The notes under the pieces were generated by a model, which searched no databases, was not told the origin of the DNA, and worked only from the letters and a program-made list of their open reading frames with translations. Shown in pieces: positions 41,131 to 56,895 of a DNA stretch of 64,000 bases. Each line of letters opens with the position of its first letter. The first letter of the stretch is position 1. Both the position numbers and the translations under genes were made by a program. Source of the DNA: Clostridiales bacterium 38-18 (GTDB lineage Bacteria > Bacillota > Clostridia > Peptostreptococcales > Acidaminobacteraceae); NCBI GenBank assembly GCA_001897605.1, contig MKTL01000004.1, positions 62,001-126,000 on the forward strand. The letters run 5' to 3'.

Positions 41131-41149
41131 TACATTAATTTTAAAAATA

Positions 41150-41174
41150 AAAACACCGCAAAGCGGTGTTTTTT
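41150..41174. terminator. Bidirectional terminator between fRMsr and the polyprenyl synthase gene
   Basis: AAAACACCGC and GCGGTGTTTT form a perfect 10-bp stem with a three-base loop and have A/T runs on both sides, between convergent genes. Confidence 0.85.
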
Positions 41175-42132
41175 AGTATTTACGATCTAACAACTGTCGC
41201 GCCAATTCACTCAATACTAGCTTTGCATCGCAATCTGGTAAAGCGTCAATTTTCCGATAGGCACGGTTTGTATATTTCTGAGCAAGTGCTCTCGCTTTTT
41301 CAAGGCCTTTTTTCTTCTTAACCAATTCTAGTAATTCAACCTCTGATTTCTGTAAAACAGAAGCATCCTCACGCTGAAAGGAGTAAATTACAGGTAATGT
41401 GTAATATCCTTTCTTCAAATCGTTGTGCGTTGATTTTCCAACCAATGCTTGATCATCTGAAAAATCCAAAATATCATCTATAATTTGAAAAGCAATACCT
41501 AATTCATAGCCGATTCTTCCAAGTAGATTGGATAAGCGCTCTGAGCATTTACTTTCATAGGCGCCTGCATACATGCTTACAGCAAAAAGAGCAGCAGTTT
41601 TTCCAGAAACGACCCTCAAGTAATTTTTTACTGTCATAAACTGAAACTTACTGTGGAATTGTAACAATTCACTCTCACAAATATGTTCAATGGCTTTAGC
41701 GATTTTCTGCATATGCTCACCATCATAGTCATTATTATTTAGCATGCCCATGACTTTTGAAAGCAAATAGTCGCCTGCATAAACCGCCATATCCTTCCCG
41801 TATTTGCTTTGAATGCTCTCTTTATTTCTTCTTAATTTAGAGTCATCAATTATATCGTCATGAATCAAAGTCGCCATATGAAGCATTTCGACTGCAGCAG
41901 CGAGCTTAATACTCTTTTCCGATTGATACTCTCCAAAGTGAGCTGAAACGATAGACATTTGTGGTCTAAGCATCTTTCCATTTAAATCAATGATATCTGT
42001 AATGATTTCACTAATACCTGAAAACTTTGACTTTGACTGTTTGTTTATGGTTTCTCTAACTTTAGTCAACTCTATTGAAAGCGCTTGCTGTAATTCAGTT
42101 GTTCCATTCTTTTGTTGTACAGTAAGTGCCAT
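41173..42132 (-). CDS. Polyprenyl diphosphate synthase (DmkB/HepT-like)
   Basis: A 319-residue trans-isoprenyl diphosphate synthase. The first Asp-rich motif HDDIIDD is at 91-97 and the second, QIIDDILDF, at about 216, so it should elongate a prenyl chain for the quinone tail. NGKMLRPQM replaces the more usual GKRIRP. The gene is last in ndh2-NusG_II-Gx-synthase, the layout of the demethylmenaquinone and electron-transfer genes of the Listeria EET locus, where this protein is DmkB. GGAG precedes the ATG at 42132; the ATG at 42144 has no ribosome site. Confidence 0.9.
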   Translation of the reverse strand: MALTVQQKNGTTELQQALSIELTKVRETINKQSKSKFSGISEIITDIIDLNGKMLRPQMSIVSAHFGEYQSEKSIKLAAAVEMLHMATLIHDDIIDDSKLRRNKESIQSKYGKDMAVYAGDYLLSKVMGMLNNNDYDGEHMQKIAKAIEHICESELLQFHSKFQFMTVKNYLRVVSGKTAALFAVSMYAGAYESKCSERLSNLLGRIGYELGIAFQIIDDILDFSDDQALVGKSTHNDLKKGYYTLPVIYSFQREDASVLQKSEVELLELVKKKKGLEKARALAQKYTNRAYRKIDALPDCDAKLVLSELARQLLDRKY

Positions 42133-42156
42133 AACAATCTCCATTTCAAACTTATG

Positions 42157-42693
42157 CTATCTCATAAATTTTACTTTTTCTAAATAGTTTATTAGTATCC
42201 TTGCAACAATACCAACGAATATACCTGTTGGGATCGCAACAATTAGTAAGATTGGCAAATATGTGAAAATTAAAACATTGTGTATCATTATCGTTGCAAC
42301 TACAAGCTGACCGATATTATGTGCAACTGCACCAGCAACACTGACCCCCATCAAACTGATTTCACCTTTAAAGACTTTAAGAATTCCAGCCATGATTAAT
42401 AGACTTAATACGCCACCCGACAAGCTGTATAGAAAGCTTGAAAGTGATCCAAAAGTAACAGCAGTTAGTAAAACTCTTAATAAGACAACTGCTGAAGCTT
42501 GTTTGAATGTCAATAGATATATAGCTGCCAATGTAACAATGTTCGCTAATCCAAGCTTTGCACCCGGTGCGATAAATGGTATAGGTAACATCGTTTCAAT
42601 GAACGAAAGTATCATCCCTTGCGCTACTAGTACAGAGATAAAAACTAGCATTCTAGTCTTTGAAGGAGGTCGATTACTTTTGGTTTGTTCCAT
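42157..42693 (-). CDS. Gx transporter family protein (EetB-like, HepS-I annotated)
   Basis: A 178-residue membrane protein with five to six helices, of the family often labelled heptaprenyl diphosphate synthase component I. Conserved segments are PIPFIAPGAKLGLANIVTLAAIYLLTFKQA, FLYSLSGGVLSLLIM and GVSVAGAVAHNIGQLVVA. In Listeria a protein of this family, EetB, is needed for flavin-based extracellular electron transfer. The ATG at 42693 has AAGGAG upstream; the TTG at 42708 is rejected. It follows the NusG_II gene by 15 bp and precedes the synthase by 24 bp, so the three are an operon. Confidence 0.87.
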   Translation of the reverse strand: MEQTKSNRPPSKTRMLVFISVLVAQGMILSFIETMLPIPFIAPGAKLGLANIVTLAAIYLLTFKQASAVVLLRVLLTAVTFGSLSSFLYSLSGGVLSLLIMAGILKVFKGEISLMGVSVAGAVAHNIGQLVVATIMIHNVLIFTYLPILLIVAIPTGIFVGIVARILINYLEKVKFMR

Positions 42694-42708
42694 ATGCGTC
42701 TCCTTCAA

Positions 42709-43092
42709 TTAATCTGCAATACTATCTAAGCCGTCGCTATCTGTTGTTTCAGAAAAAATCTCAACAGTTACTTTATGCGGTAAACAAACGATGATTTCTC
42801 CATTTTGTGAGATAGCAGCTGTCTTAACACAAATTTGATCTCGACAATTAGCTTCAATCATACTGACGACACCATCCTTAATCTGAATGATATTGAGCTC
42901 ATCATCCTCTTCAAAGATATAGGTTTCATTTGTTTTGGGTGAAAATGGATATGATTTTATGACCTCTCCATCATGTTTTATCAAAACCTCAAGATCGCCT
43001 TGATTCGACTCAGATGATATTTTAAACCCTATAAAAGCAACAACCGCAATTACAAGGACAATCAACATGAGAATAATATCATTCTTCTTCAT
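42709..43092 (-). CDS. NusG domain II protein (EetA-like)
   Basis: A 127-residue protein with one N-terminal transmembrane helix (5-23) and an extracellular NusG_II domain. The three family cysteines, Cys83 and Cys88 in ANCRDQICVKTAAIS and Cys103 in IVCLPHKV, are present. In Firmicutes such proteins sit beside the Gx transporter gene; EetA of the Listeria electron-transfer locus belongs here, which is my basis for the label. AAGAAGG precedes the ATG by five bases. A hairpin lies between it and ndh2, so expression may depend on read-through or a local promoter. Confidence 0.85.
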   Translation of the reverse strand: MKKNDIILMLIVLVIAVVAFIGFKISSESNQGDLEVLIKHDGEVIKSYPFSPKTNETYIFEEDDELNIIQIKDGVVSMIEANCRDQICVKTAAISQNGEIIVCLPHKVTVEIFSETTDSDGLDSIAD

Positions 43093-43120
43093 TTATACCT
43101 TCTTTTTATAAATCATTTAA

Positions 43121-43149
43121 AAATCGTATCTGCAGAGCAGATACGATTT
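43121..43149 (-). terminator. Hairpin between ndh2 and the eetA-like gene
   Basis: A perfect 13-bp stem (AAATCGTATCTGC and its complement) with a three-base loop is followed on the minus strand by five Ts. It would end or attenuate the ndh2 transcript before the downstream genes. Confidence 0.7.
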
Positions 43150-43205
43150 AATTTTAGTTCACAAACTCTTGTGATTCATCTGTAGCATGGCTACTGATTA
43201 TTTAA

Positions 43206-44984
43206 TTAATGGAAATACAAATACGACTTCTTAGCAAACGGCGTTTTCTTCCACCATTTTTTAAGAACTGGAAGGACATAGTAGTCTAATCCAAGTGCAC
43301 TACCTGAACCACCGATCATAGCGATACCACCGAAGAAGAACCATAAGATTGATGCATCAGACATACCTGTTAGTGTAATACCAACTGTCATAAATGTTGT
43401 TGCAATCGATGCGATAAATGTGAATAAACCAGCAATTAACATTAAACCGAAGATAATTTCCATAAATACCATACCTGTTTGGAATAAAACAGCATGTGGT
43501 GCAATGATATTATCGATCGCCCATTGAACGACACCAGGAACCTTTTCGATTAATGGCTTAGCTGCATCTACTGCAGCTTCTGCATTTTCAGAAGCTTGAG
43601 TAACTGCGTCTGACGCATACATTTTTGCTTCTACTAACCAACCTTCATCGATCTTATTAAGACCTTCAATTAACCACATAACTCCTAAGAATACTCTGAA
43701 TGGCATTAAGAAGAAATTAGGTGATGCTTTAGAGAAATGACCACCAACGAATGATCTTCTGTTTTTAACTTTAAAGAATTCATTTTGCATATACTCAAAC
43801 AATTGAGCCAAACCTGCTACCATAAATAAGTAGTAGAAGTTAACCATATGCTTAACAAGTACTGCTAACCAACCATTGAATTTTAATCCATTGTTATCAG
43901 AAACTGCGTATCTAGATCCGATAGATACCATGAACCCGTGATAATTTTGTTTGTGCTCATGAAGCGGTTTATTTTGAATTAAGTTACCGATATTTAATGC
44001 TGCAGTATGACCAGATTGCTCAGCAGCTTCAACGATTTGTGGTAAGAAACCATCTTTATCTTCGTAGTGCGCATTGTCACCAGCCATAAACACATAGTCA
44101 TACTTGTTAGTTTGCATGAATTTATTGACGATAACTCTTCCGCCTCTACCTGCTTCAAGACCTAATTTACCAACAAAGTTGCTAACCTTGATACCAGCAC
44201 CCCAGATTAAAGTCTTAGTGCTGATGAATCTGCCATCCTTAAGCTCAAAGCCTTCCTCAGTTGCTTTAACTAAAGCAGCATTTTTAAGAAGCTCGATACC
44301 TAATTTTTTATATCTATTTTCTACTTTAGCAATTTGTCTTTCGTCCTTAAGTGTATTAAGGATTCTTGGAGTTGCTTCGATGTTGTAAATAGTAACTTCT
44401 TTCTTATCAACACCATATTTTTCAGCTAAGTGATCTTTAGCTTCGCCGATTTCACCAACCATCTCAACGCCAGTGAATCCACCACCAACAACTGCGAAAG
44501 TTAATAATTGTTTTCTTTTAGCTTCATTTTCTTCTACTGCTGCCATTTGGAACATTTTTTCGATATGTGCTCTTAAAGTAACAGCATCTTCATAAGACCA
44601 AAGTGTAAATGCGTGTTGATCTACCCCTTCAATACCAAATGAGTTTGAATCTGAACCAGCAGCTAAGATCAAGTAATCAAATGGATATTCTTTTCTTTCT
44701 GAAACCAGTTTTTTACCTTCAAAGTCAACGTTTGTAATTGTGTCTGTTACAACTTTAACTTTTCTTGCTGCAAAAACTTTTCTCAAATCGATTTGGATTG
44801 CGTGTGGTTCTGTACGATGTCCAGCAACCTCGTGAAGTTCTGTCATCAATGTGTGGTATGGTTTTTTGTCGATCAATGTGATTTCTACAGAATCATCATT
44901 TTTGAAGATCTTGTGGAGCGTCTTGCCCGCTTTGACTCCGGCATAGCCACCGCCGAGAATCAAAATTCGCTTCTTGTCAGCCAT
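43206..44984 (-). CDS. ndh2: Type II NADH dehydrogenase with DoxX-like membrane tail
   Basis: A 592-residue fusion. The N-terminal ~400 residues are a two-dinucleotide FAD/NAD oxidoreductase (ILILGGGYAGVKAGKTL, TFAVVGGGFTGVEMVGE and the FAD motif YVFMAGDNAHYED). After a short helical hinge, residues about 420-580 form four transmembrane helices of DoxX type (FRVFLGVMWLIEGLNKI, FQTGMVFMEIIFGLMLIAGLF). It should oxidise NADH and reduce a membrane quinone. Ndh2 enzymes with an extra membrane domain mark flavin-based extracellular electron transfer loci, and the three genes downstream fit that setting. AGAGGG precedes the ATG by six bases. Confidence 0.9.
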   Translation of the reverse strand: MADKKRILILGGGYAGVKAGKTLHKIFKNDDSVEITLIDKKPYHTLMTELHEVAGHRTEPHAIQIDLRKVFAARKVKVVTDTITNVDFEGKKLVSERKEYPFDYLILAAGSDSNSFGIEGVDQHAFTLWSYEDAVTLRAHIEKMFQMAAVEENEAKRKQLLTFAVVGGGFTGVEMVGEIGEAKDHLAEKYGVDKKEVTIYNIEATPRILNTLKDERQIAKVENRYKKLGIELLKNAALVKATEEGFELKDGRFISTKTLIWGAGIKVSNFVGKLGLEAGRGGRVIVNKFMQTNKYDYVFMAGDNAHYEDKDGFLPQIVEAAEQSGHTAALNIGNLIQNKPLHEHKQNYHGFMVSIGSRYAVSDNNGLKFNGWLAVLVKHMVNFYYLFMVAGLAQLFEYMQNEFFKVKNRRSFVGGHFSKASPNFFLMPFRVFLGVMWLIEGLNKIDEGWLVEAKMYASDAVTQASENAEAAVDAAKPLIEKVPGVVQWAIDNIIAPHAVLFQTGMVFMEIIFGLMLIAGLFTFIASIATTFMTVGITLTGMSDASILWFFFGGIAMIGGSGSALGLDYYVLPVLKKWWKKTPFAKKSYLYFH

Positions 44985-56544: not shown

Positions 56545-56589
56545 GTATCTACCATTCCACATAACTTCCCTCCGAAGTATTGGTTGTAT

Positions 56590-56755
56590 TGCATCAAGGC
56601 AGGTTTCCTGGCTTATAGTTCACTTTACTTTCCGACCTTCCCGATAATCGGTGGTATTCCGGATTTCATCCCTAATTACAGTAGCGGGGGCTGCAGAGGA
56701 TTTCAACCTCTTTCCCTCTTAGCTTATGGCTAAGCACCTAGATGGCTATTCAATT
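56590..56755 (-). promoter_or_regulatory. Adenosylcobalamin riboswitch
   Basis: Reading the minus strand, AGGTGCTTAGCC, GAGGGAAAGAGG, TTGAAATCCTCTGCAGCCCC, CGCTACTGTAA and the B12 box GCCAGGAAACCTGCC appear in the order and spacing of the cobalamin aptamer. It sits about 140 bp upstream of cobQ with an intrinsic terminator between them, so control is by transcription attenuation. The whole cobQ-cbiB-cobD-cobU-cobS-cbiA operon is downstream. Confidence 0.95.
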
Positions 56756-56895
56756 AAGCTCATTATAATCTTGTGACAAATAATTGTCAAGCTATAAACA
56801 AAATAATTAAGCATTTTCACATAAAAATACACTATATTTTGATTTTTAACTTATCCTCGATCAATATATAGTATATTGTTTATTTTTTTACTTTT

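Follow-up and report, generated by a model that had tools for sequence, protein, structure and literature searches.

Flavin-based extracellular electron transfer genes of Clostridiales bacterium 38-18 and a possible supply of their quinone from an imported precursor

How can flavin-based extracellular electron transfer (EET) be complete in a bacterium that shows only the core of the system at one place, and where would its quinone come from? These questions are raised by four genes at positions 41173-44984 of a 64,000-nucleotide stretch of DNA (the window) from Clostridiales bacterium 38-18, which is C4:62001-126000 of the study genome G000 (3.42 Mb, 30 contigs, 97.88% complete). A sequence-only reading of the window had named these genes ndh2, eetA, eetB and dmkB, and had taken them for a flavin-based EET core, the rest of which would be encoded elsewhere or replaced. 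All four genes are present in this order on the minus strand, with Pfam matches that fit their names, and ApbE, PplA-like and DmkA/MenA-like genes were found on other contigs, in agreement with that reading. The EET genes are spread over at least four places of the genome: the window, a pplA/apbE site on contig C16, an mqnLPM operon with ATP-binding cassette (ABC) transporter genes on C16, and dmkA on C7. We consider it likely, with some reserve, that this organism carries out flavin-based EET and builds the demethylmenaquinone for it from dihydroxynaphthoate taken up from outside, the window cluster providing the part from reduced nicotinamide adenine dinucleotide (NADH) to quinone and the part for export of flavin adenine dinucleotide (FAD).

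Ndh2 (43206-44984, minus strand, 592 residues) is a type II NADH dehydrogenase with a C-terminal DoxX-like membrane domain. Residues 6-323 match PF07992 with 132 bits, and the DoxX-like domain claimed earlier is recovered by PF07681 with 25.9 bits, barely above the cut-off of 23.6. The closest solved chain is 4nwz_A, a FAD-dependent pyridine nucleotide-disulfide oxidoreductase (197.7 bits, residues 4-395 only). EetA (42709-43092, minus strand, 127 residues) is a membrane-anchored protein with a NusG_II domain (PF07009, 107.6 bits). EetB (42157-42708, minus strand) is a membrane protein of the Hpre_diP_synt_I/Gx-transporter family (PF07456, 158 bits) and, by analogy, probably the S-type FAD-export subunit of an energy-coupling factor (ECF) transporter. 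Its listed frame begins with a TTG at 42708, directly after the eetA stop, and the ATG at 42693 behind an AAGGAG motif appears the likelier true start. After a spacing of 12 bases follows DmkB (41173-42144, minus strand, 323 residues), a polyprenyl diphosphate synthase for the quinone side chain (PF00348, 207 bits), with heptaprenyl diphosphate synthase component II as top NCBIfam match (TIGR02748, 213 bits, under the cut-off of 456.55). According to the parts of PMC9973259 drawn on here, EetB of Listeria binds FAD as a subunit of an ECF-type FAD exporter, and a clean eetA deletion kept wild-type EET activity; the label of an "inner-membrane half", which the cluster had been given, is not the most fitting one for eetA and eetB. 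The order ndh2-eetA-eetB-dmkB, for which a comparison across Clostridia had been proposed, is kept in all eight members of the window's family examined and is therefore not due to chance.

The cluster lacks the lipoprotein and flavin-transfer genes of such a locus, as had been noticed from its sequence. The single ApbE match of the genome (PF02424, 278 bits) is located on C16 and has an N-terminus that reads as lipoprotein type (LLLLGGC). On the opposite strand, a frame of 339 residues adjoins apbE and gives the sole match in the genome to the PplA model (NF041941, 52 bits, E 5e-14, cut-off 325). This PplA-like protein carries a signal peptide with FIGC, as read from the sequence (an LGC appears where the frame is extended upstream), and two D-x-x-T-G-x-S sites, a motif that takes flavin mononucleotide (FMN). 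Among the loci of other genomes (handles beginning with L), its counterparts are identical to 52% in L053, 49% in the spirochaete locus L148, 47% in L106, 39% in L054, 37% in L055 and 27% in L120, with shorter matches also in L098 and L101. The genome further holds two UbiA-family prenyltransferase genes, one DmkA/MenA-like (C7) and one MqnP-like (C16). The DmkA-like enzyme (L010, 9172-10113) matches PF01040 with 83 bits (cut-off 34.2), and 1,4-dihydroxy-2-naphthoate polyprenyltransferases fill its top five NCBIfam places, each under its cut-off (NF004752 with 278.6 vs. 289; NF009926 with 225 vs. 316). The search for PplA, ApbE and a prenyltransferase across the genome did not end in the absence that would speak against EET, and a true "minimal half pathway" was rejected because genes for ApbE, a PplA-like lipoprotein and prenyltransferases exist elsewhere in the genome.

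Two lipoprotein-type proteins with FMN_bind and FAD_binding_2 domains are encoded on C6 (L013, 7758-9737; L014, 8325-10094). To judge from their domains, they could be terminal, flavinylated extracytosolic reductases. The gene in L014 adjoins an apparent sensor kinase and a response regulator.

An alternative is that the window genes serve other flavoproteins. FAD exported by EetB could feed ApbE-dependent flavinylation of RnfG and NqrC, the polyprenyl synthase could provide general isoprenoids, and Ndh2 could act as an NADH valve, in which case there would be no true EET. The presence of an Rnf set and an Nqr-type set in the genome, each with an FMN_bind subunit, is in accord with this explanation. 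We nevertheless judge it rather improbable, given that a PplA-like lipoprotein with two flavinylation-type sites adjoins the sole ApbE found, and that relatives carry PplA-like genes, apbE and ndh2 in one locus. As to the sets themselves, the Nqr-type genes on C1 (L011, 9167-13056) encode an NqrB/RnfD-like protein, an NqrC-like protein with FMN_bind, NqrD/E-like proteins and NqrF (302 bits, cut-off 295), with no NqrA-like gene recognised within the L011 stretch, and a complete Rnf set is located separately in L012.

Regarding the quinone, the expectation of a MenA/DmkA-type enzyme was borne out by the DmkA-like gene. Unforeseen were MqnL-MqnP-MqnM together with an ABC transporter, and the failure to find early steps of quinone synthesis. 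In locus L008 on C16, mqnL, mqnP, mqnM/ubiX and the genes of an ABC ATPase and a TauC-type permease are co-directional, and an NMT1/SsuA-type binding lipoprotein is encoded divergently. MqnL scores 643.6 bits with TIGR03701, above the curated cut-off of 495.9, and the SsuA/TauA/NMT1-type transporter set is complete (binding lipoprotein PF13379, permease PF00528, ATPase PF00005). No PF02621 match (MqnA/MqnD) was obtained in G000, in a search whose controls matched in 4 of 14 genomes; the best match to MqnC (TIGR03699) reaches 56 bits against a cut-off of 428.1, and the best to MenD (TIGR00173) 70.9 bits against 244.2, in a frame of 612 residues. Hence no known route to the dihydroxynaphthoate head is visible, a negative that holds within the 97.88% complete genome (about 2% missing) and for a search in which MqnB, MqnE and MenB were not included. 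As the early steps of both known quinone pathways were not found, the quinone is probably scavenged.

The window-family form of MqnL (L008, 10581-12317) exceeds the usual form by about 100 residues, and the extra part resembles a duplicated C-terminal segment, of which copy one retains EGPLDALDHASN and copy two STVxWKxFNNIDPxRD.

A structure model of the binding protein was obtained for the relative L095, the first of 25 aligned sequences, with a mean predicted local distance difference test score of 94.8. The model resembles CmpA, NrtA, SsuA, TauA and the pyrroloquinoline quinone (PQQ)-binding PqqT (Z 24-28, 15-18% identity), and also Thi5, with MqnD and MqnA further down the list. R50 and R146 (numbering of the L095 model) are invariant across the 25 aligned proteins. 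The modelled fold would suit a small-acid transporter and gives no firm indication of the cargo.

The link between this tail of the futalosine pathway and EET becomes visible in relatives. In a sample of 297 genomes of the window's order (G000 included), MqnL exceeds the TIGR03701 cut-off in 19, among them G000. In all 19 loci mqnP adjoins mqnL; the stretch includes a binding protein in 17 loci and ubiX in 16, and an ABC ATPase and permease stand beside mqnLP in 18, the nineteenth stopping at a contig edge. In five of the 19 loci (L048, L050, L053, L054, L055), ndh2, eetB and dmkB directly precede mqnL and mqnP. ABC genes follow mqnLP in four of these fused loci, and the fifth again stops at a contig edge; eetA is present in three, apbE in four and PplA-like genes in three.

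A second set comprises the best 80 of at least 565 mqnL loci from named organisms. It is not independent of the order sample, as at least four genomes are common to both (L095=G175, L096=G149, L097=G134, L117=G067). Under the rule that a binding protein of at least 170 bits or a permease of at least 200 bits makes a locus ABC-linked, 34 of the 80 qualify. One or more of ndh2, eetA, eetB, pplA and apbE lie in the flank of 9 of the 34 ABC-linked loci vs. none of the 46 others (Fisher p 2e-4; this and the Fisher values below ignore common descent), and the same count for loci of at least 14 kb is 9/26 vs. 0/29. All five genes are flanking in Clostridium cuniculi (L098), Clostridium sp. (L101), Clostridiales GPF-1 (L106) and the spirochaete Sphaerochaeta (L148). 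Clostridium, Fervidicola ferrireducens and a spirochaete (L098, L101, L120, L148) all combine mqnLP-ABC with EET genes, which suggests horizontal spread. Fusibacter ferrireducens, of the window's own family, has ndh2-eetA-eetB-dmkB (L213), mqnLPM-ABC (L058, L096) and DmkA in separate places; it is called Fe(III)-reducing in the title of its description, a phenotype that would fit the EET reading.

These loci also bear on a de novo route, in which non-homologous enzymes would replace MqnA-E and the ABC transporter would carry some other cargo, e.g. sulfonate. In favour of this, the binding protein belongs to the broad SsuA/TauA/NMT1-like fold group, and six MqnL genomes without an adjoining ABC set (see below) likewise lack strong MqnA/D and MqnC matches. 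However, an unrelated cargo is hard to reconcile with ABC genes adjoining mqnLP in 18 of 19 order loci and 34 of 80 named loci. The most shared flanking families outside the module occur in 8 of the 19 order loci. We give the de novo route little credence.

Presence and absence were also compared across genomes. Ndh2 matches to the window protein at E 1e-60 or better, many spanning just the first ~450 residues, occur in 56 of the 297 genomes and in 19 of the 19 genomes with MqnL (Fisher 1e-15). DmkA was surveyed in 72 genomes, namely the 56 with Ndh2 and 16 of the 241 without, the latter all from the genus or family of the window. Scores above 140 bits with the DmkA model were obtained for 49 of the 56 vs. 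2 of the 16, and in 23 of the 49 the distance between DmkA and ndh2 is, by coordinate count, no more than 5 kb. The seven Ndh2 genomes without DmkA are G188, G008, G043, G078, G082, G106 and G175; six of them have MqnL (Fisher 0.005), and G082, the only one without, is 72% complete.

This data has to be weighed against a more classical form of scavenging, in which demethylmenaquinone arises solely through the DmkA-like enzyme from imported 1,4-dihydroxy-2-naphthoate, and mqnLPM-ABC makes another prenylated aromatic that EET does not need. The DmkA-like gene of the study genome agrees with it, as do the 49 Ndh2 genomes with DmkA and the 23 in which both genes are close. Moreover, EET of L. plantarum with exogenous 1,4-dihydroxy-2-naphthoic acid (DHNA) is described in the parts of PMC10746273 used here, and import of DHNA has been proposed for lactic acid bacteria. 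This explanation gives no reason why several families have mqnLP fused to ndh2-eetB-dmkB, or why mqnLP accompanies EET genes in two phyla, and it is also at odds with MqnL in six of the seven Ndh2 genomes that lack DmkA. Hence it appears unlikely, though less so than the de novo route or the service of other flavoproteins.

The early enzymes of the futalosine pathway were compared between ABC-linked and other loci, with PF02621 matches of at least 200 bits counted as strong and those of at most 43 bits as weak. Strong matches occur in 2 of 34 ABC-linked genomes vs. 10 of 16 others, which were chosen from the 46 for their long flanks (Fisher 4e-5). For MqnC, a score of at least 400 bits was reached by 2 of 37 genomes, made up of 19 order genomes and 18 from the ABC-linked 34, vs. 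6 of 13 others; the two are those with strong MqnA/D. The weak matches, at nine places in the genomes of eight relatives, were considered as MqnA/MqnD and rejected, as the four proteins inspected resemble lipoprotein binding proteins. A weak match to the binding-protein profile is present in all nine stretches but one; seven of these eight also have an adjoining permease match, and the ninth (L208) has permease and ATPase matches and no binding-protein match.

The Ndh2 protein itself is 64-65% identical (residues 3/4-493) to the Ndh2s of G008 and G020, the loci of which hold PplA-like genes. In an unrooted tree of 42 rows (38 different sequences) with weak deep branches, the window Ndh2 falls into a group of 17 rows with 100/100 support that includes L054, L055 and L106; PplA-like genes are present in these three loci, and ApbE in L055 and L106. 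The sequence-only reading would be refuted by a placement of the four proteins outside the EET clades; the position of Ndh2 agrees with that reading, in a tree that covers this protein alone and contains no Listeria sequences.

Based on this dataset, we propose the following course of events. Ndh2 would oxidize NADH and reduce demethylmenaquinone in the membrane. The quinone would combine a prenyl chain from DmkB with a dihydroxynaphthoate head that is imported rather than made by the cell. 1,4-dihydroxy-6-naphthoate may enter via the ABC transporter adjoining mqnLPM, to be prenylated by MqnP and then decarboxylated by MqnL with prenyl-FMN from MqnM, and/or 1,4-dihydroxy-2-naphthoate may be used through the DmkA-like enzyme. 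EetB would supply FAD, and ApbE would attach FMN to the PplA-like lipoprotein. From the quinol, electrons would pass to the FMN of this lipoprotein, possibly also to the two FMN_bind/FAD_binding_2 lipoproteins, and from the flavoproteins to outside acceptors such as Fe(III). The transporter cargo, the identity of the quinone, flavinylation and electron flow are inferred throughout. We regard it as an even call that the ABC transporter of mqnL-mqnP(-mqnM) is a dedicated 1,4-dihydroxy-6-naphthoate importer, and that with the orphan futalosine tail it makes up a widespread cassette for quinone scavenging, which feeds the EET of fermenters in at least two phyla and would make their extracellular respiration dependent on precursor donors in the community.

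Several observations weigh against the proposed import of a quinone head for EET. DmkA alone might suffice, and dihydroxynaphthoate as the cargo of the ABC transporter is unproven and deduced from the gene neighbourhood; the binding-protein fold serves nitrate, bicarbonate, sulfonates, taurine, PQQ and pyrimidines alike. The two loci of the study genome are not fused, so that the link depends on relatives, and eetA has no match in two of the five fused loci (L048, L053), where eetB is present. A renewed search for eetA in L048, L053, L099 and L120 gave no match either. Some profile scores also stay low: MqnP, although a good match, stays under the curated cut-offs of three MqnP models (best 301 vs. 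430), the DmkA-like enzyme misses its curated NCBIfam cut-offs, and the PplA-like protein scores low with the curated PplA model (52 vs. 325 bits). Of five PplA-like proteins from linked loci, the one in L055 is unmatched by that model and the other four reach 23.6-81 bits. Finally, two of the 34 ABC-linked genomes carry both strong MqnA/D and MqnC, G340 has strong PF02621 without MqnC, and strong MqnA/D and MqnC are likewise missing from 6 of the 16 MqnL genomes without ABC linkage, so that the absence of MqnA/D is not specific to the ABC-linked group.

The six non-ABC genomes in question correspond to loci L127, L128, L129, L131, L138 and L150. A distinct biosynthetic neighbourhood was considered for them and rejected, as five of the six (all except L128) share flanking families with MqnA/D-bearing genomes. 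As a guess, their assemblies are incomplete; otherwise they may have another way to obtain naphthoate.

The EET core is of a known kind. As in the FLEET system of Listeria monocytogenes (lmo2634-lmo2641), the window has Ndh2 with a membrane tail, EetA, EetB and DmkB, and a PplA-like lipoprotein, an ApbE/FmnB-type transferase and a DmkA-like prenyltransferase are encoded elsewhere in the genome. Unlike Listeria, the study genome splits EET over several loci, shows no known head-group route, and has an extra MqnL-MqnP-MqnM-ABC operon that is fused to EET genes in relatives. This comparison is one of gene content, for which parts of PMC9973259 and PMC8837199 were drawn on, rather than of sequences. 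With the end of the futalosine (Mqn) pathway, MqnP-MqnL-MqnM, as treated in the portions of PMC4746308 consulted, the genome shares an MqnL above cut-off with an adjoining MqnP-like gene and UbiX; different is that neither MqnA/MqnD nor an MqnC above cut-off was found, and that the tail stands alone with a transporter. In the same portions, mqnP/L/M are given for every Mqn-pathway genome and for none of the others among 254 gut genomes, and transporters for incomplete Men pathways are said to be still awaiting annotation.

Lactic acid bacteria such as L. plantarum supplied with DHNA likewise combine EET genes, a partial quinone pathway and an external head group, as far as the cited parts of PMC10746273 and PMC8837199 extend. 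In contrast to these, the study genome encodes an ABC transporter with prenylation genes, where PMC10746273, in its cited part, calls the pathway of quinone incorporation yet to be identified. 'Candidatus Contubernalis alkaliaceticus' also has EET genes scattered across its genome, and differs in that no DmkA homologue is reported, nor any replacement named, in the cited part of PMC10608574. Among the openly licensed papers of PubMed Central that were listed, judged partly by counts and titles, no link of mqnP, MqnL or futalosine to flavin-based EET was found. As far as this search reaches, a coupling of EET with an orphan futalosine tail that has a transporter of its own is undescribed. It has been proposed that microbes take up quinone precursors from one another, with the importer left unnamed in the cited parts of PMC4746308 and PMC10746273. 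If our proposal holds true, the module names a candidate for this importer, explains EET genomes without DmkA and predicts which EET fermenters are quinone auxotrophs, making cross-feeding of precursors testable.

Some features of the window concern expression of the cluster. The gap of 113 bases between ndh2 and eetA contains a perfect hairpin of 13 pairs (43121-43149, no strand assigned), a possible attenuator or partial terminator. As this hairpin sits within the gap, transcription of ndh2 may be partly uncoupled from that of eetA-eetB-dmkB. A terminator-like hairpin of 11 pairs (41149-41173, both strands) ends the cluster, facing a convergent GAF gene; terminator-like sites in the region number 8 vs. 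2.5 expected. The promoter scan was uninformative, with 17 sites against 17.9 expected. Upstream, the cluster is neighboured by a class II tRNA synthetase gene with an editing domain, resembling prolyl-tRNA synthetase by its domains. In the window scan, no FMN riboswitch close to the cluster reached the Rfam threshold, which was reached elsewhere in the window by a cobalamin riboswitch and 6S RNA. The cobalamin riboswitch (56581-56756, 110.6 bits) lies ahead of a run of cobalamin biosynthesis genes. A second one is located at 14474-14642 of L010, about 4.4 kb from the DmkA-like gene, and precedes genes for a small secreted-type protein and a membrane protein, both of which appear ECF-related by eye.

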